Source of the DNA: Mucilaginibacter sp. L3T2-6
GTDB lineage: Bacteria; Bacteroidota; Bacteroidia; Sphingobacteriales; Sphingobacteriaceae
Length of the DNA: 64,000 bases
Direction of reading: 5' to 3'
Assembly: GCF_030519355.1 (NCBI RefSeq)
Contig: NZ_JAUMKC010000016.1
Coordinates: 62,001 to 126,000, forward strand
Of this stretch, positions 30,800-38,138 are shown piece by piece (position 1 is the first letter of the stretch; the number at the start of each line of letters is the position of its first letter). A program made the translations under genes and the position numbers. Below the pieces are notes generated by a model, which made no database searches, was not told where the DNA came from, and worked only from the letters and a program-made list of their open reading frames with translations.

Positions 30800-32263
30800 A
30801 TGAAACTTGCGACCCAAATATCGCTGGGGTTGTTTATAGCTATCTCTATTGACCTGGTTGACTCGTATGTAAATTATTCTTTAACGAAAAAAGTTAATAC
30901 GAACACCGATTTTCTGACTACATCGGAGGCTATCATCCGGACATCCAGCAACTTAAACCGGAGCATTATTGACATGCAAAACGGTTTGAGGGGGTTCTTG
31001 CTTTCGGGCAATCAGAGGTTTCTTGTGCGTTACGAAAGCGGATTAAAAACGATCCCTGAACTACTGAAACAGGAAAAAGGTCTGATTATTTCCTCAGCGC
31101 TGCAAACGGCCCGTCTTGATTCTATCAAAGCTATTCATAACGTATGGCTCACTTTTGCCAATCAAATTATTGATGCAAAAAAGAAGGCCATTGCCGATCC
31201 CCGCTTGAATAATAACTACCGGAAATTATTTGAAGAGCAAACCAATTTAAATACCGGCAAAAATTACAACGAAGAAATCACAGCTCTGTTTGCATCATTT
31301 GATCAGTACGAATATGATGTGCGGGCAAAAAGGAGAAAGGCGCTTACCGATTCAATTGCCGCGACGGACAGATTTTCACTTTTTTTTAGTTTATTACTCA
31401 TTGTAGCCGGATCCGGGCTATCAATTTACCTGGTGAGGAAAATAACTCAACGTATAGACTCCATGGTGAAATTAGCTGAAGATATCTCTGCGGGGGAGTT
31501 CCCTACGGTAACCGATGACAAGAAAGACGAGCTTACAAGCCTTTCGCTGTCGCTCAACCTGATGTCGCAAAAACTCAGCCGGAATATTACCGAACTGGAG
31601 AGAAAGAACGATGAACTGGATCAGTTTGCCTATGTGGTTTCGCATGACCTGAAAGCTCCGATAAGAGGTATTTCAAACGCAGTACAGTGGATAAAGGAAG
31701 ACTTGCCGGAGGAAATGTCTCCCAGCATGAAGAAGTACCTAGGCATTATTCCGGAACGACTGAAACGCATGGCCGATCTTATTGACGGGCTACTGGCGTA
31801 TGCGCGGATTGGGCGGGGAAAATATCCCAGGGAAATAGTGAATGTAGCCGACTTAATCAGGGAAATAGCGGATCTTGTTGTTCCTGAGGGATATCAACTG
31901 ACTATGAAAAATCTTCCGGTACTATCTACCGAAAAGATATTGCTTGAACAGGTATTCGGAAATTTGCTGAGTAATGCCGTAAAGTATACACCGCAACAAG
32001 GTGCGCAGATAGAAGTAAGCTGTAGTGAACACCGGAATTTTTATGAGTTTGCTGTGTCAGACAACGGCATTGGTATTGAACAGGAGTACCATAAAAAAAT
32101 TTTTGAAATGTTTCAGACGTTAAGAGAAAAGCATGACGAAGAAAGTACCGGGATTGGCCTTGCTATCGTAAAAAAAATTATTGAAGGAAATGAAGGGACA
32201 GTCAGGGTTGTATCTTCGGCGGGCAAAGGCACGCGTTTTTTGTTCACCTGGCCTAAGAACTAA
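30800..32263 (+). CDS. CHASE3-HAMP sensor histidine kinase
   Basis: The 487-residue membrane kinase has a first helix at about residues 5-23, a periplasmic CHASE3-type four-helix bundle (RSIIDMQNGLRGFLLSGNQR is the CHASE3 signature), a second helix near 195-212, HAMP, a coiled linker, HisKA with His in VVSHDLKAPIRGISN, and HATPase (NLLSNAVKYTPQ, DNGIGIEQEY, STGIGLAIVKKI). The next gene, a CheY-like receiver, starts one base after the stop and is the probable partner. Confidence 0.93.
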   Translation: MKLATQISLGLFIAISIDLVDSYVNYSLTKKVNTNTDFLTTSEAIIRTSSNLNRSIIDMQNGLRGFLLSGNQRFLVRYESGLKTIPELLKQEKGLIISSALQTARLDSIKAIHNVWLTFANQIIDAKKKAIADPRLNNNYRKLFEEQTNLNTGKNYNEEITALFASFDQYEYDVRAKRRKALTDSIAATDRFSLFFSLLLIVAGSGLSIYLVRKITQRIDSMVKLAEDISAGEFPTVTDDKKDELTSLSLSLNLMSQKLSRNITELERKNDELDQFAYVVSHDLKAPIRGISNAVQWIKEDLPEEMSPSMKKYLGIIPERLKRMADLIDGLLAYARIGRGKYPREIVNVADLIREIADLVVPEGYQLTMKNLPVLSTEKILLEQVFGNLLSNAVKYTPQQGAQIEVSCSEHRNFYEFAVSDNGIGIEQEYHKKIFEMFQTLREKHDEESTGIGLAIVKKIIEGNEGTVRVVSSAGKGTRFLFTWPKN

Positions 32264-32264
32264 C

Positions 32265-32699
32265 ATGAAAAAGATTTTATTAGTTGAAGATGACGAACTC
32301 GACGTTATAAGCGTACAGAGGTCTTTGAGAAAGATTGAAGTGGAACACGAACTGGTTACGGCCTATAATGGCGTCGAAGCTTTGGATAAGCTGCGGGGAA
32401 ACCAGCGCAATCCCCCCATGAACCCTTTGCCTGATGTTATATTATTAGATATAAACATGCCGAAAATGAATGGCTTGCAGTTTTTGTCGATATTAAGAGA
32501 CGACCCGCTACTAAAGCACCTTAAAGTTATTATTATGACAACTTCGGGAGAAGAACACGACAGGGCAGTAACCGGAAGACTGGGTGTTTCGGGCTATCTT
32601 ATTAAGCCGTTAAATTTTACCAATAACGATAAGCGGCCTGACTCTATGGACGGTTTCGTCCAATTCCATCTCCGTAATATCTTAGCGAATCTGGAATAA
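32265..32699 (+). CDS. Single-domain (CheY/Rcp1-like) response regulator
   Basis: The 144-residue receiver starts KKILLVEDDELDVISVQRSL, has phospho-acceptor Asp in PDVILLDINMPKMNGLQFL, Thr in IIMTTSGEEHD and Lys in GYLIKPLNF. There is no output domain, so it acts by protein contact, like Rcp1 partners of phytochrome-type kinases. ATG 32265 lies just after the kinase stop; a longer frame start at 32181 would be inside the kinase gene and adds unrelated residues. Confidence 0.92.
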   Translation: MKKILLVEDDELDVISVQRSLRKIEVEHELVTAYNGVEALDKLRGNQRNPPMNPLPDVILLDINMPKMNGLQFLSILRDDPLLKHLKVIIMTTSGEEHDRAVTGRLGVSGYLIKPLNFTNNDKRPDSMDGFVQFHLRNILANLE

Positions 32700-34075: not shown

Positions 34076-34114
34076 TACGTAATATCACGCGACTTAATAC
34101 GTAAAACTACGCGA
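34076..34114 (+). promoter_or_regulatory. Two TACGTAA-type repeats upstream of module copy 1
   Basis: TACGTAATATCACGCGA (34076-34092) and TACGTAAAACTACGCGA (34098-34114) are spaced 22 bp start to start, about two helical turns. A third copy precedes module copy 2. They end about 172 bp before the ATG, and a duplicated block (AAGTTGAAATA, 34214-34224) lies between. The likely binder is the NarL-type regulator of this cluster, but this is not shown. Confidence 0.6.
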
Positions 34115-34285
34115 TGTTAAAATAATAAACGCGGGATTTTGATTAATTTAGGCTGAAAACAAGCTAATTACTGCTTTTATGCAGTTTATATCTTGCCGGG
34201 CCGACTTGTTTTGAAGTTGAAATAATAATTAATAAGTATTAGTTTTATAGCGACTATTATTAATAACCTATTAATTTGAACTCAA

Positions 34286-34669
34286 ATGAAAACCACAACT
34301 GGTCCGTCTGTACTTACAGGTAAGGAAGGCGGCGAACTTGACCTGGAGCAAGCAAAAACCTGGATAAAAAATCACCAGGACAGGCATCCGCACGAGCCTC
34401 ATTCACATTATTTCGGAAAAGAGATATTACAAAAAATTTTAAACCAGGAAGGTTGTGTTGGCTTGCGTTTTCATCACGGCCACAGTGGTGCATTGGGTGA
34501 AGAAGGTGGTTCCCGCCATCTCGTCATAACAGGGGTAACTGCCAACGGCAGTGATATGATGAATGTTAAGCCGGCAAAGCTAAACAAAACAGAAATGGCA
34601 TCAGTAACTGCGTTTGATACCGTCGGCGACCAGTCGGTACCCTGCCCTGGTTCGTTAGGCTGCCCTTAA
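34286..34669 (+). CDS. CPGSxxCP small protein, module copy 1
   Basis: This 127-aa protein has no signal peptide or membrane segment. Shared with the second copy at 35545 are TGKEGGELDLEQAKTWIKNH, FGKEILQKIL and QEGCVGLR (Cys57 at the same residue number in both), and the C-terminal CPGSLGCP at residues 120-127. The ending has the look of a metal- or cofactor-binding Cys pair, or of a processed C-terminus. I do not recognise a named family. A membrane-protein gene starts 10 bp later, and the same pair recurs downstream. Confidence 0.8.
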   Translation: MKTTTGPSVLTGKEGGELDLEQAKTWIKNHQDRHPHEPHSHYFGKEILQKILNQEGCVGLRFHHGHSGALGEEGGSRHLVITGVTANGSDMMNVKPAKLNKTEMASVTAFDTVGDQSVPCPGSLGCP

Positions 34670-34679
34670 CAAAAACAAC

Positions 34680-35315
34680 ATGCTTCAATTTTTAACTTTA
34701 TTAAGCGTTGTGTCGGGTTTATTTCCCGTCCTGGCAGCGCTTTTGAATTATAAGCACCTCGATAAGGTGTTAAAACTTGCAACAGCTTTTTTCCTGATGA
34801 ATGTACTGTCAGACCTGTTGCAGGTTTTAACTTTGGTGTTAAGGACAAAAAATAATCAGCCTATCTTACATGCCAATATTATTTTAAGCGTCCTGTTTCT
34901 TATCGGTATTTATTATTATTCTTTTGTTTTTATCAGGTTAAAAAGATTCGTATTATCAACAGGCTTAGTTGCTGTACTTGCCTTGATTTACTGCCTTATC
35001 TATATTAACGGCATTTGGGACTATCCCTCATCGGCAAATACCGTTTTAAGCCTGCTGACTATACTCTTCTCCATAATTTATTTTGTGCAGTTATTAAACC
35101 AGCAGGAGTTTGTACACATTGAGCGACTCGGCTTTTTCTGGATAAACTCCGGATTATTGTTTTATTTTTCAGTCAATATCTTCCTTTTTATGCTTTTTAA
35201 AAGGATGATTGCCAACCACCTGCAGGAGTATTATATGATACACAATGTAACGAATATCATAGCCAACATACTGTTTTCCGTGGGAATGCTCTGTAAACCG
35301 CAAAAAAGCGCATGA
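34680..35315 (+). CDS. Polytopic membrane protein, module copy 1
   Basis: The 211-residue protein has six or seven hydrophobic helices with short loops. The last third contains the block shared with copy 2: EFVHIE, FWINSGLLFYF, NIFLFMLF, then IH-x-x-TN and ANI. No transporter or enzyme motif is recognised. The helical layout resembles small 7TM sensory receptors. It follows the CPGSxxCP gene by 10 bp and is probably cotranscribed. I propose a receptor role for the short kinase encoded at the end of the cluster. Confidence 0.78.
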   Translation: MLQFLTLLSVVSGLFPVLAALLNYKHLDKVLKLATAFFLMNVLSDLLQVLTLVLRTKNNQPILHANIILSVLFLIGIYYYSFVFIRLKRFVLSTGLVAVLALIYCLIYINGIWDYPSSANTVLSLLTILFSIIYFVQLLNQQEFVHIERLGFFWINSGLLFYFSVNIFLFMLFKRMIANHLQEYYMIHNVTNIIANILFSVGMLCKPQKSA

Positions 35316-35359
35316 GCGGCTACGTTCAATTTCGGCCTGCGTACTACCACTGAACTTGT

Positions 35360-35376
35360 TACGTAAAACTACGTGA
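35360..35376 (+). promoter_or_regulatory. TACGTAA-type repeat upstream of module copy 2
   Basis: TACGTAAAACTACGTGA matches the two copies upstream of the first module, one base different from the copy at 34098. It ends about 169 bp before the next ATG, nearly the same distance as in the first module. A degraded TACGGG begins 22 bp further on (35382), where a second copy would be expected. The block AAGTTGAAATA recurs at 35478-35488. Confidence 0.6.
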
Positions 35377-35544
35377 TTATTTACGGGCAGTGCTTTTGGT
35401 CAAATCTGTAACAGTCTGATTAAAAGAAAATTACACTAAACAGGGCAGATTCGTCTTCCCTGAGTGTTCGCTCCCTTAAGTTGAAATACTAACTAATTAG
35501 CTTTAGTTTTAGATAGTATTTGCAATATCCCCAACGATTAAACT

Positions 35545-36033
35545 ATGGAAAAAGAATCAAGGTCTGCCGAATTGACCGGCAGGGAGGGCGAAATATTTAA
35601 CTTTAAACTGGCTGCCCAATGGACAAAAAACTATCGTGATATAAACCGCGGAGAGATTATATCCCAGTTTTTTGGACGCGAGATTCTGAATAAGTTGCTT
35701 GAACAGCCCGGATGCATGGGTATCCGGATGTACTATGCTAATGATAAACCAGTTAACGGCTGGCAGCGAATTATACTTTCAATAAGCCGCTTTTTGTTGA
35801 AAGTTATAGGCAATATAGAAGGCAAGCCCCACCTGATATTGGTTGGCGCCTCCAAAGACGGCAGCGACATACTTCCCGAGGCTGATTTAGAGGCCGAAGC
35901 ACCGGAACAGCTGACAAGCGCCGGCATGAGGGCTGCAACAGCTGCGGCAGCCCCAACAGGGCTGGTTGTACAAATAGCTATGCCCTGCCCGGGTTCGGCA
36001 AACTGCCCCAAAAATTCACTATCGGGCAAATAA
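35545..36033 (+). CDS. CPGSxxCP small protein, module copy 2
   Basis: This 162-aa paralogue of the 34286 gene has LTGREGEIFNFKLAAQWTKN, FGREILNKLLEQPGCMGIR (Cys57) and CPGSANCP at residues 148-155 followed by a seven-residue tail. Relative to copy 1 it has an additional ~25-residue segment in the middle (around RIILSISRFLLKVIGNIEG), amphipathic or weakly hydrophobic, and an Ala-rich linker. No signal peptide. The Cys57 and both terminal Cys being the only shared cysteines suggests they are functional. Function unknown. Confidence 0.8.
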   Translation: MEKESRSAELTGREGEIFNFKLAAQWTKNYRDINRGEIISQFFGREILNKLLEQPGCMGIRMYYANDKPVNGWQRIILSISRFLLKVIGNIEGKPHLILVGASKDGSDILPEADLEAEAPEQLTSAGMRAATAAAAPTGLVVQIAMPCPGSANCPKNSLSGK

Positions 36034-36046
36034 TACCTTTACACTA

Positions 36047-36703
36047 ATGTCTTTAGAGAATATCCTGAACTATTTATCGCTTTTCTCGGGTCTTTTTCCG
36101 GTTATTGCAGCTATTTACCGATATAGAACATTAAGCTCTGTGTTAAGGCTGATGGCAATATTTTTCTTTATTTCAGCCCTTGTTGACACCCTCCTTCTGA
36201 TAACACCCCGGATAGGTATTCTTAATAATGCTCCGTTGATCCATGGCTTCACCGTAATTATCGTCATTTTTTTTGGTATAGTTTATTACCGCTCTTTCTA
36301 TATACCCTCACTAAAAAAAATAACTCTCGGGGCTTGCATACTGGCTTTTGCAGGAATTATATATGGCTTGATTATCGAGGGAATCATGTCTTTTCCATCC
36401 TTTGCCAACTCATTTTTAAGCGTGGTCTTCACGCTGTTGTCACTTTTATATTTCTACCAGTTGCTAAATGCGAAAGAGTTTGTGCACATTGAAAGCCAGC
36501 CCATGTTCTGGATAAATTCTGCAGTGCTGTTTTATTTCGGAATAAATATATTTTTGTTTATGCTGTTCGATAAATTTTTTAGTCACAGCACTGATGATGT
36601 TTGGATAATTCACGACCTTACCAACGTATTTGCTAATATTTTTTATTCAATAGGATTGCTTTGCCAAAACCGACGGACGAAAACGACCTTATACCGATAC
36701 TGA
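36047..36703 (+). CDS. Polytopic membrane protein, module copy 2
   Basis: The 218-aa paralogue of the 34680 protein has the same six to seven helices and the conserved EFVHIESQPMFWINSAVLFY, NIFLFMLF and DLTNVFANIFYSIGLLC blocks. It starts 13 bp after the CPGSxxCP gene. Its final 43 bases overlap the start of the histidine kinase gene in another frame, tying receptor candidate and kinase together physically. Function is inferred only from this arrangement. Confidence 0.78.
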   Translation: MSLENILNYLSLFSGLFPVIAAIYRYRTLSSVLRLMAIFFFISALVDTLLLITPRIGILNNAPLIHGFTVIIVIFFGIVYYRSFYIPSLKKITLGACILAFAGIIYGLIIEGIMSFPSFANSFLSVVFTLLSLLYFYQLLNAKEFVHIESQPMFWINSAVLFYFGINIFLFMLFDKFFSHSTDDVWIIHDLTNVFANIFYSIGLLCQNRRTKTTLYRY

Positions 36704-37446
36704 TTACCGGCACGCTGGTAATTGTTATCCTGATTGTTTTTTTATTCTTTTTCGTGATTATCTATCAGCGAAAAATGATAAAGAACCAGGCCGAGGTGCG
36801 CAAACTGCACGACGAGAAACAGACCGACCTATTAAACGCAGTTTTTGAAACGCAGGAAAGTGAGCGAAAGCGCCTGGCCGAAGATCTGCATGACAGTGTG
36901 GGGCAGGTATTATCAGCTATAAAGCTTAATCTGCACCGGCTCGAAAAAAAATCGGCTGATAAAATTGCCGACCCTTTGCTGGCTGATACCCGGCGCCTGA
37001 CCGATGAGAGCATACAGGAGATACGAAACATCATCCATAATGTATTGCCACCGGTTTTAACAGACTATGGCCTTAAAGAAGCCCTTGAAGGCCTATGCCT
37101 GAAAATGCAGGAAACAACAAGCGTTAAAGTGCATTGTAAGACTAACCTCGATGAAATAAGGCTGCGGCCCGAACTAGAGCTGGCTTTTTACCGCATGGCC
37201 CAGGAATTATTCAGCAACGCTATAAAACATGCCGATGCCAGCATCATTCATTTAACCATTACCAAAGAGGATGGATGGCTGGTGATGGAATTTAAAGATA
37301 ATGGTAAAGGATTTAACATGGATGAAGTGAAGCATGGTTTCGGGCTCAAAAACCTGCAAAGCCGGATTCAATTGCTGAACGGCGATGTTAAAGTTTACAC
37401 AAAGCCGCAAAACGGCACTATTACGATTATAAGGGCAATGATATAA
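36661..37446 (+). CDS. NarL-family histidine kinase without a sensor domain
   Basis: The 261-aa kinase has a single N-terminal helix (about residues 10-33), then directly a HisKA_3 region (ESERKRLAEDLHDSVGQVLS, His in DLHD) and HATPase (MAQELFSNAIKHADAS, DNGKGF, HGFGLKNLQSRIQLL). Having one helix and no periplasmic or PAS domain, it needs an external input; the overlapping 7TM-like gene is a candidate. The start is TTG 36661 (MPKPTDENDLIPIL). No in-frame ATG precedes the helix, so the start is not fully certain. Confidence 0.88.
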   Translation: MPKPTDENDLIPILITGTLVIVILIVFLFFFVIIYQRKMIKNQAEVRKLHDEKQTDLLNAVFETQESERKRLAEDLHDSVGQVLSAIKLNLHRLEKKSADKIADPLLADTRRLTDESIQEIRNIIHNVLPPVLTDYGLKEALEGLCLKMQETTSVKVHCKTNLDEIRLRPELELAFYRMAQELFSNAIKHADASIIHLTITKEDGWLVMEFKDNGKGFNMDEVKHGFGLKNLQSRIQLLNGDVKVYTKPQNGTITIIRAMI

Positions 37447-37484
37447 TAACCGCTTTTGCTACCTTTATTTACTTTTAAGCAACT

Positions 37485-38138
37485 ATGGAAAAAATCAGAC
37501 TAGCAATTGCGGATGACCACAAGATTTTTAGAAATGGTTTAAAGGCTACGCTGGAAGATTGTGACAACTTCGACCTCATTATCGAAGCATCCAACGGGAA
37601 GCAGCTGATTGGCATGCTGACCGAACTTACCCCTGATGTGATCTTGATGGATATCAAAATGCCCGAAATGGATGGCATACAAACCACCACTGCCGTAAAG
37701 CAGAAATATAAGGACATTAAGGTGCTTGCCTTATCAATGTTTAATGAGGACAAGTACATTGTCGACATGATGAAAGCAGGGGCTTCAGGCTATCTTCTGA
37801 AAAATGCGGAGCCAGAAGAAATCATTGAGGCCATACAAACGGTATATCATAAAGATTACTACTTTAACGAACACCTTTCAATAACCTTAATTAAACAGCT
37901 GGCAGGAAACAACGCAGGGGGTGGCCCGTCACAATCACTAGCTGATTTTAATGAGCGTGAAATAGAAGTTTTACGCCTGGTATGCCAGGAGTATTCCAAC
38001 CAGGAAATTGCCGATAAAATTTGCCTGAGCGTGCGCACTGTTGAAGGCTACCGCGCCCGTCTGTTCGAAAAAACACGTTCCAAAAACCTGGTGGGCCTGG
38101 TGATTTTTGCAATCAGGACAGGGATAATTAATGTTTGA
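37485..38138 (+). CDS. NarL/FixJ-family response regulator
   Basis: The 217-residue protein has a receiver (AIADDHKIFRNGL, Asp in PDVILMDIKMPEMDGIQTT, GASGYLLKNAEPEEIIEAI) and a C-terminal LuxR-type HTH (FNEREIEVLRLVCQEYSNQE, then CLSVRTVEGYRARLFEKT). It is 38 bp after the kinase gene and is the natural partner. The TACGTAA repeats in front of both modules are its most likely targets, which would make the cluster self-regulating (inference). Confidence 0.93.
   Translation: MEKIRLAIADDHKIFRNGLKATLEDCDNFDLIIEASNGKQLIGMLTELTPDVILMDIKMPEMDGIQTTTAVKQKYKDIKVLALSMFNEDKYIVDMMKAGASGYLLKNAEPEEIIEAIQTVYHKDYYFNEHLSITLIKQLAGNNAGGGPSQSLADFNEREIEVLRLVCQEYSNQEIADKICLSVRTVEGYRARLFEKTRSKNLVGLVIFAIRTGIINV

Follow-up and report, generated by a model that had tools for sequence, protein, structure and literature searches.

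In agr of staphylococci, signal and membrane parts form a variable block, and the kinase output and the regulator behind it are constant; AgrC carries a polytopic sensor domain of its own and belongs to another kinase class, and AgrA is of the LytTR type. Sensory rhodopsins are seven-helix sensors separate from their transducers, and bacterial seven-transmembrane (7TM) receptors include 7TMR-DISM and BtsS. In comQXPA, conservation decreases from ComA to ComP to ComQ to ComX, and the membrane part of ComP is more variable than its cytoplasmic domain (PMC4008528). In LiaFSR, the inhibitor LiaF is tied to envelope stress, and the kinase LiaS possesses two helices plus a HAMP domain (PMC7191749). 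Here we compare such systems with a gene cluster of Mucilaginibacter sp. L3T2-6, located at 34286-38138 of a 64,000-nt stretch (the window) of its 5.7-Mb genome. According to open reading frame (ORF) calls, the + strand order is CP1-MEM1-CP2-MEM2-HK-RR, where CP is a small protein with a C-terminal CPGSxxCP, MEM is a predicted seven-helix membrane protein, HK is a histidine kinase, and RR is a response regulator.

The locus is like comQXPA of Bacillus in its adjacent same-strand genes, with a small protein before a HisKA_3 kinase and the response regulator last. The regulator is the most conserved component, followed by the kinase and then the signal part (here RR > HK > MEM and CP), and the membrane part of the putative receptor varies more than the kinase core. 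The putative signal and receptor part, CP-MEM, diverges far more than kinase core and regulator. Unlike comQXPA, the membrane receptor would be a separate gene rather than part of the kinase, CP is a protein of 100-160 aa with a predicted fold rather than a short pre-peptide, and the phylum is another. The window has a HisKA_3 kinase and a NarL-type regulator on the same strand; some other lineages appear to differ in kinase type or have a receiver-only regulator. No ComQ prenyl transferase gene was found in CP-MEM-HK-RR loci, and no MEM or CP member had a prenyl transferase Pfam match.

The variable CP-MEM block precedes a constant kinase-regulator output as in agr, but HK has no polytopic sensor domain, the regulator is NarL-type, and we show no counterpart of AgrB or AgrD. 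By analogy, CP-MEM swapping (below) resembles the quorum-sensing polymorphism of comQXPA and agr. LiaFSR likewise has a third protein beside a kinase without an extracellular domain and a NarL/FixJ-type regulator; here, however, HK has one helix and no HAMP domain was found. We know of no CP-like gene in LiaFSR. No LiaF-type family appeared among the Pfam matches of 68 MEM members (the LiaF profile was not compared directly), and HK does not reach the LiaS family cut-off (NCBIfam NF052531, 99.7 bits versus a cut-off of 450). As in sensory rhodopsin-transducer pairs, a seven-helix membrane sensor would stand as a separate protein beside its signalling partner. Unlike rhodopsins, MEM2 lacks the retinal-binding lysine in transmembrane helix (TM) 7 (residues 182-205).

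We favor, at a probability of about one half, a reading in which CP-MEM is a split, exchangeable 7TM receptor module that feeds a constant HK-RR pair and serves population-specific sensing. What is new here, judged from comparison of loci, is the exchange of CP-MEM as an island before constant HK-RR. The initial annotation knew of no described system with this composition. Our literature searches, mostly of titles and the starts of abstracts, also found no such description, and as far as these searches go the CP-MEM-HK-RR unit is undescribed.

Organization of the locus

ORF calls and a domain scan bear out two CP-MEM modules followed by a one-helix HK and RR, as first noted. The second membrane gene does overlap the kinase start: the HK frame opens at TTG 36661, inside MEM2, giving an overlap of 43 bases. 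The kinase lacks a sensory domain, as had been proposed, with HisKA_3 and HATPase_c found after its single helix. For the membrane protein, first described as having 6-7 helices, AlphaFold predicts seven in MEM2. The features are as follows.

34078..34089, + strand: weaker second box copy CGTAATATCACG, 22 bp 5' of the main box; comparable second copies in loci L035 and L052
34100..34111, + strand: module 1 upstream box CGTAAAACTACG, presumed regulator site; among four exact genome matches
34217..34247, + strand: module 1 promoter-like element TTGAAA...TTAGTTTTA, direct repeat D2; found in 18/22 genus upstream regions
34286..34669, + strand: CP1, 127 aa, ends CPGSLGCP; no signal peptide seen; AlphaFold predicted local distance difference test score (pLDDT) 81.6; no family at cut-off
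34680..35315, + strand: MEM1, 211 aa, polytopic membrane protein of module 1
35362..35373, + strand: module 2 upstream box CGTAAAACTACG
35481..35511, + strand: module 2 promoter-like element TTGAAA...TTAGTTTTA
35545..36033, + strand: CP2, 162 aa, CPGSANCP; long form with an insert (NGWQ...) absent from CP1
36047..36703, + strand: MEM2, 218 aa, seven helices, predicted N-out/C-in; AlphaFold pLDDT 93.6, predicted TM-score (pTM) 0.89
36661..37446, + strand: HK, one TM helix, coiled coil, HisKA_3, HATPase_c; no sensory domain found; overlaps MEM2
37485..38138, + strand: RR, Response_reg receiver and LuxR/GerE DNA-binding domain

The two CP-MEM modules have separate upstream regions, each with a promoter-like element and a copy of a common box. 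The TTGAAA...TTAGTTTTA element resembles the Bacteroidota -33/-7 promoter.

CP-MEM is exchanged ahead of a constant kinase and regulator

We compared loci between species, using one genome per species; the HK core was defined as the last 200 residues, and whole frames were used for the HK count of the pair L038/L042. In this pair, both members of which are Mucilaginibacter genomes, RR is identical (218/218) and HK nearly so (260/266, 97.7%; last 200 residues identical), with CP at 94/161 (58%) and MEM at 109/210 (52%). DNA identity per 100 bp is 87-96 upstream, falls from 78 to 43 through CP, is 46-70 in MEM, rises from 81 at the HK start to 94-99, and is 92-98 in RR and 90-100 downstream. Synonymous divergence (dS) is 0.27 for HK and 0.20 for RR, beside saturated values for CP and MEM, which argues for replacement and not for fast amino acid change alone. 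Together, the DNA identity profile and the dS results show CP-MEM to have been swapped as an island between species.

Other loci give similar patterns. For the L042 MEM the closest match, at 70% identity, is in L043 (HK core 78%), versus 52% to that of its sister L038. The CP and MEM of L180 are 78% and 79% identical to their nearest relatives, in L039, yet other loci have an HK core at 93-94% identity to that of L180. Two pairs of metagenome-assembled genomes (MAGs) from other families have percent identities for CP, MEM, HK, and RR of 95, 59, 92, and 98 (L221/L233) and 52, 45, 92, and 96 (L137/L238). Across 20 pairs with RR at least 96% identical, mean identities are 77 for CP, 64 for MEM, and 92 for the HK core, and in 529 pairs with an RR distance below 0.3 the distances are 0.175 (RR), 0.281 (HK), 0.484 (MEM), and 0.495 (CP). 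There are also counter-examples, in which the whole locus is uniform (L171/L172, L219/L229, and L048/L185).

Nearest neighbors were compared among 30 genus units with an equal 1% tolerance for all proteins (exact counts in brackets). HK and RR agree in 28/30 (19), CP and HK in 23 (16), CP and RR in 22 (14), MEM and HK in 18/30 (13), and MEM and RR in 16 (10). The partial correlation of CP and MEM distances given HK and RR is 0.38 over 108 units (equaled in 0/500 row permutations) and 0.37 in close pairs.

Gene order is conserved across the phylum

CP matches were detected in 24 of the 61 genus genomes, one of them weak (E 0.006), and all 20 of the 20 genus loci fetched keep CP(-CP)-MEM-HK-RR. 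Judged by gene calls, this conserved order in the genus exceeds chance. At the level of the phylum, the CP profile matches 43/395 genomes and the MEM profile 81/395. From a scan across named genomes, 141 loci encoding relatives were obtained, of which 80 were kept. The order CP-MEM-HK-RR recurs through Bacteroidota and also in Ignavibacteria MAGs. Among these are loci from Mucilaginibacter, Pedobacter, Pontibacter, Hymenobacter, Chitinophaga, Flavobacterium, and Kaistella, along with Ignavibacteria MAGs, one KSB1 MAG, and one Gemmatimonadales MAG. The KSB1 contig stops after CP, so a cassette there is unproven; the Gemmatimonadales locus continues MEM-HK-RR.

Three sets (22+56+61) provided 139 distinct CP units, after exclusion of 15 duplicates and 6 CPs directly before another CP. 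The initial annotation had named co-occurrence with the membrane family and kinases as its check, and scattered homologues with inconsistent partners as the outcome that would speak against it. Such scatter was not seen: CP is followed by MEM in 130/139 units, by MEM-HK in 120/139, and by MEM-HK-RR in 113/139. Exceptions include contig ends (e.g., L200, L204, L239), tandem layouts (e.g., L033, L049, L086, L225, L226, L244), a hybrid kinase labelled as regulator (L088), and loci with a gene absent or unrecognized (L139, L212, L214, L222, L224, L245). In L093 MEM was uncalled, yet a search finds a MEM frame there.

In a reverse test we started from MEM and took 20 loci among its best hits where no CP hit lay close by. 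HK is next in 19/20, and in the remaining locus the ORF caller missed MEM. Directly upstream of MEM, 13/20 have a weak CP profile match (11-50 bits), and several of these weak CPs look like lipoproteins; the remainder comprises three unmatched ORFs with a CPP/CPN-type tail, three loci with none recognized, and the one with MEM missed. On the strength of gene order, CP-MEM-HK-RR is a real, phylum-wide four-gene signalling unit.

MEM is a predicted seven-helix protein

The AlphaFold model of MEM2, made with 68 sequences, has a rhodopsin/GPCR (G protein-coupled receptor)-like 7TM arrangement. In VIA, Z is 12.5 to mGlu2 and 12.1 to proteorhodopsin, and seven-helix receptors and rhodopsins make up nearly all the rows shown; that a given family does not appear in the VIA output was given no weight. 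Foldseek relates the model to Kin4B8 with probability 1.00, TM 0.65, and a root-mean-square deviation of 4.5. Comparison with rhodopsin folds overall gave Z of about 11-12, TM up to 0.65, and a Foldseek E never <= 0.001. We claim likeness of predicted shape to rhodopsins and GPCRs, not descent, because helical bundles below Z 13 may share arrangement alone. Against the PDB by sequence, the best E of the MEM profile is 2.4. The 7TMR-DISM family PF07695 had no match at E 0.1 in 67/68 MEM members (one at E 0.0068) and none at E 1 in the window proteins.

By eye, most Lys and Arg residues of MEM2 fall in loop 1, in the C-tail, or close to loop 3; exceptions lie around loops 2 and 6. This distribution points to an N-out, C-in orientation. 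Within the genus, conservation peaks in TM6 (0.74), followed by loops 1 and 5, TM5, TM7, and the tail (0.59-0.62), and lowest in TM2-TM4 and loops 3 and 6 (0.29-0.40). MEM is likely a receptor, a role that the initial annotation had suggested; this fits the seven-helix prediction, the sensor-less kinase, and module swapping.

Most CPs carry conserved cysteines

Cys57 is present in both CP1 and CP2, and CPGSxxCP lies at or near the C-terminus. This tail, noted initially, holds for both window proteins, but it is the shape that a more widespread C-terminal Cys pair takes in Mucilaginibacter. The pair occurs in 119/142 distinct CPs, mostly as CPxxC (77) or CPxxxxC (39), and is absent in 23. A loose Cys57 pattern fits 106/142. 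The best conserved part of CP is the Q-x-G-C-x-G-[IL]-R segment around Cys57, in a set partly picked by the presence of this segment. The AlphaFold model of CP1 has helices at 20-33 and 45-52, strands at 40-42, 59-66, and 77-84, and a C-terminal strand; 91-110 and the tail are less certain. An N-terminal lipobox or hydrophobic segment is present in 10/142 distinct CPs, for which reason we suspect that CP may act outside the cell.

CP and MEM reach no curated Pfam cut-off, either as window proteins or among 68 MEM and 72 CP members, and the window CP and MEM proteins reach no NCBIfam cut-off. Matches of CP2 to Csd3_N2 (E 0.0043) and MepM (E 0.0024) were rejected as homology, being weak and restricted to CP2. 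Sequence searches of the PDB gave a best E of 0.36 for CP2 and nothing at E 5 for the CP profile. For the fold, the best Foldseek E is 0.29 and the best VIA Z is 2.8, so there is no useful match to a solved fold, and novelty of the fold is unproven. An origin of CP as a phage or mobile gene was also rejected: no CP2 relative was found in viral contigs, there was no PHROGs match at E 1, and one wider-family CP (L083) had no plasmid match.

Some loci encode unusual CP-like proteins. A divergently placed gene encoding about 311 aa (L180:3683-4618, - strand) appears to have two CP-like parts, an internal CPGSTGCP, a C-terminal extension, and no Pfam family; weak CP matches of similar size to this protein occur in L039, L040, L041, L044, L045, L182, and L183. 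An extra lipoprotein-like CP of about 250 aa lies between MEM and HK in L160 (3994-4743) and L162 (3122-3880), where the first CP ends SPPF and has no cysteines.

A conserved box precedes the modules

The box CGTAAAACTACG is exact in 12/22 genus upstream regions. A loosened pattern, written after the upstream regions tested had been seen, occurs in 21/22, 121-210 bp before the called start, with a chance expectation of 0.004 per 350 bp elsewhere in genus loci. Four exact sites occur in the window strain's own genome: two at the CP locus, one before a cupredoxin lipoprotein gene, and one without a clear target. At least one box hit is present in 20/24 CP-positive genus genomes (33 hits, control 20) and in 8/37 CP-negative ones (9 hits, control 23). 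Zero-mismatch sites in the genus are all in CP-positive genomes (9/9), 8 of them at the CP locus.

We fetched 20 of the 22 non-CP box sites in CP-positive genomes; two with a changed core were excluded. Seven sites precede small lipoproteins, three cupredoxins (one scanned, two by eye), two Pvc16_N genes, and two peptidoglycan-binding proteins (one scanned, one by eye), and six have no recurrent target. The sites before peptidoglycan-binding proteins sit in a hairpin that is probably a terminator. The box lies 79-123 bp before the small lipoproteins in seven genus genomes (L358, L362, L368, L369, L370, L372, L375); their signal peptide is near-constant and the mature part variable. We considered these lipoproteins as ligands of MEM and dropped them as specific ligands because the mature parts do not follow the MEM allele: they are close in L368 and L370 (by eye), though the MEMs of these genomes (L038, L042) are 52% identical. 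In one genome the box is found 157 bp before a Pvc16_N gene heading a contractile-injection run (sheath, tube, gp25; L363:2111-2861, L378), and in a second genome it precedes a Pvc16_N gene without such a run (L374, L379). Cupredoxin lipoproteins follow the box in three genomes: L373:2568-2948 (own genome; the sole one scanned), L359, and L364.

Proposed mechanism and alternative explanations

In the mechanism that we favor, MEM would be a seven-helix receptor without an output domain, controlling the one-helix, sensor-less HK via membrane contacts. HK would phosphorylate the NarL-type RR, and RR would act through the CGTAAAACTACG box to activate the CP-MEM(-HK-RR) operon, closing a positive feedback loop, and might also activate a small number of other genes. 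CP would be a near-obligate partner of MEM, most likely at the outer face, since several lineages encode CP with a lipoprotein or signal-anchor-like N-terminus. There it could be a ligand, a co-receptor, or a ligand-processing factor, where the initial annotation listed ligand, modifier, or metal carrier, and its C-terminal Cys pair may form a disulfide or a metal site. CP-MEM would be the exchangeable specificity module, swapped before near-unchanged HK-RR as in pherotype loci; given such pherotype-like exchange, the signal would probably be population-specific (self or neighbor recognition). We tentatively extend this, as a possibility short of an even chance, to a widespread and undescribed Bacteroidota system for cell-to-cell or self-recognition, with a GPCR-shaped receptor, a CPPxC partner, and a polymorphic cassette traded between species by recombination; two stacked cassettes would then be two dialects.

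Several observations weigh against the favored mechanism. The comparisons are between species, with one genome for each. CP and MEM nearest neighbors agree within 1% in only 15/30 units (exact 13), and by exact nearest neighbor even HK and RR agree in only 19/30. Partial correlations over all units are not clean (CP-HK 0.36, CP-RR -0.35). In L183/L218 (the same loci as L040/L038), identities are 94 for CP, 50 for MEM, 94 for HK, 98 for RR, and 95 for flanking genes. Since MEM differs strongly in some relatives whose CP is about 95% identical (L038/L040 and L221/L233: CP 94-95%, MEM 50-59%), CP by these comparisons cannot alone set receptor specificity. Ratios of nonsynonymous to synonymous substitution (dN/dS) are low within allele types (MEM 0.04-0.20 where measurable); we rejected positive selection, as dN/dS is low in every measurable pair, and this points to old alleles rather than ongoing positive selection. 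The Foldseek matches of MEM all stay above E 0.001 (best 0.098), and a helical-bundle Z below 13, as here, can mean common arrangement only. Of the CPs, 132/142, including those of the window, have no export signal. The box, finally, does not exceed its reversed-pattern control in total, with 29 hits at <=1 mismatch versus 87 in the own genome and 42 versus 43 across the 61 genus genomes. A wide regulon is thus not supported; autoregulation via the box, presumably by RR binding, is supported because exact sites cluster at CP loci.

MEM alleles might instead sense different outside chemicals, lineages trading receptors to suit their niches, with CP a constant chaperone, stabilizer, or co-sensor and no cell-to-cell signal. 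This would suit the cases in which CP remains 94-95% identical while MEM is replaced, and the MEM pattern of variable TM2-TM4 with TM6, TM5, TM7, and the tail kept, as if the ligand side were free to vary and the kinase side held constant. CP often changes together with MEM, however (L038/L042, L137/L238, L035/L050), and CP-MEM distances correlate beyond HK and RR, which an unchanging helper would not need to produce; we consider an environmental receptor swap rather unlikely. A LiaFSR-like envelope-stress system, in which MEM would be a kinase inhibitor reporting damage, its divergence would reflect phage or toxin pressure, and CP would be a redox or metal cofactor, appears improbable. With a stress inhibitor one would not expect CP and MEM to be replaced jointly as an island, and 23/142 CPs have no Cys pair, even though HisKA_3 and NarL classes with a separate membrane partner occur as in LiaFSR, the box precedes small lipoprotein and cupredoxin genes, and CP does carry the pair.

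The adjacency of a small Cys-containing protein and a membrane protein, both strongly divergent and exchangeable, also resembles a toxin-immunity or bacteriocin locus under a dedicated two-component system, with CP as the toxin and MEM as the immunity protein or target. In one genome (L363, L378) a box match ahead of a contractile-injection operon would be in keeping with this. We judge it very improbable given that the CP core is conserved across the phylum, a sensor-less HK directly follows MEM, CPs mostly have no export signal, and neither CP nor MEM had a PADLOC match at E 0.01.

If the exchangeable receptor module is real, a large and ecologically important phylum would have a dedicated communication or kin-recognition system, a bacterial GPCR-like receptor would feed a two-component pathway, and the two undescribed families, CP and MEM, would gain a function. 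Pairs of the L038/L042 type, with near-identical HK and RR but differing CP-MEM, may represent a natural experiment on receptor, ligand, and specificity.

Two modules on one kinase and variation of the output

The duplicated module of the initial annotation stands as two copies, but not as a recent duplication. Identity is 36% between CP1 and CP2 and 43% between MEM1 and MEM2, and each has closer kin in other species: CP1 is nearest to the CPs of Mucilaginibacter RYN_326 and OK098, and MEM2 to the M. frigoritolerans MEM. On this low mutual identity and closer kinship elsewhere, the window modules are two old allele types side by side. The strain has two modules on one kinase, hence probably two specificities. 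Tandem CP-MEM-CP-MEM also occurs in L086 and in three Hymenobacter loci (L225, L226, L244). Variant layouts are CP-CP-MEM (eight rows, five distinct loci), CP-MEM-MEM (five), and CP-MEM-CP (two). A strongly diverged further CP-MEM-HK-RR cassette, with a CP ending CPPFCTDLC, is found in the same genome outside the window (G000:C7:51210-52221; L102:3744-6219).

In the kinases read, one N-terminal helix is followed by a coiled coil; distant lineages have PAS-like segments instead. By eye, the kinases of L085, L086, L088, L091, L093, L095, and L136 carry such segments as an addition behind the helix, and some of these kinases resemble another class or hybrids. Pontibacter and Hymenobacter loci between L199 and L244 have a regulator of 131-142 aa in 18 loci; that of L199, the sole one scanned, is a receiver without a DNA-binding domain. 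The output of short-regulator loci may not be direct transcription.

Elsewhere in the window, at 30800-32699, lie a CHASE3-HAMP histidine kinase gene and, after it, a short putative response-regulator frame; neither is related to the CP-MEM locus.

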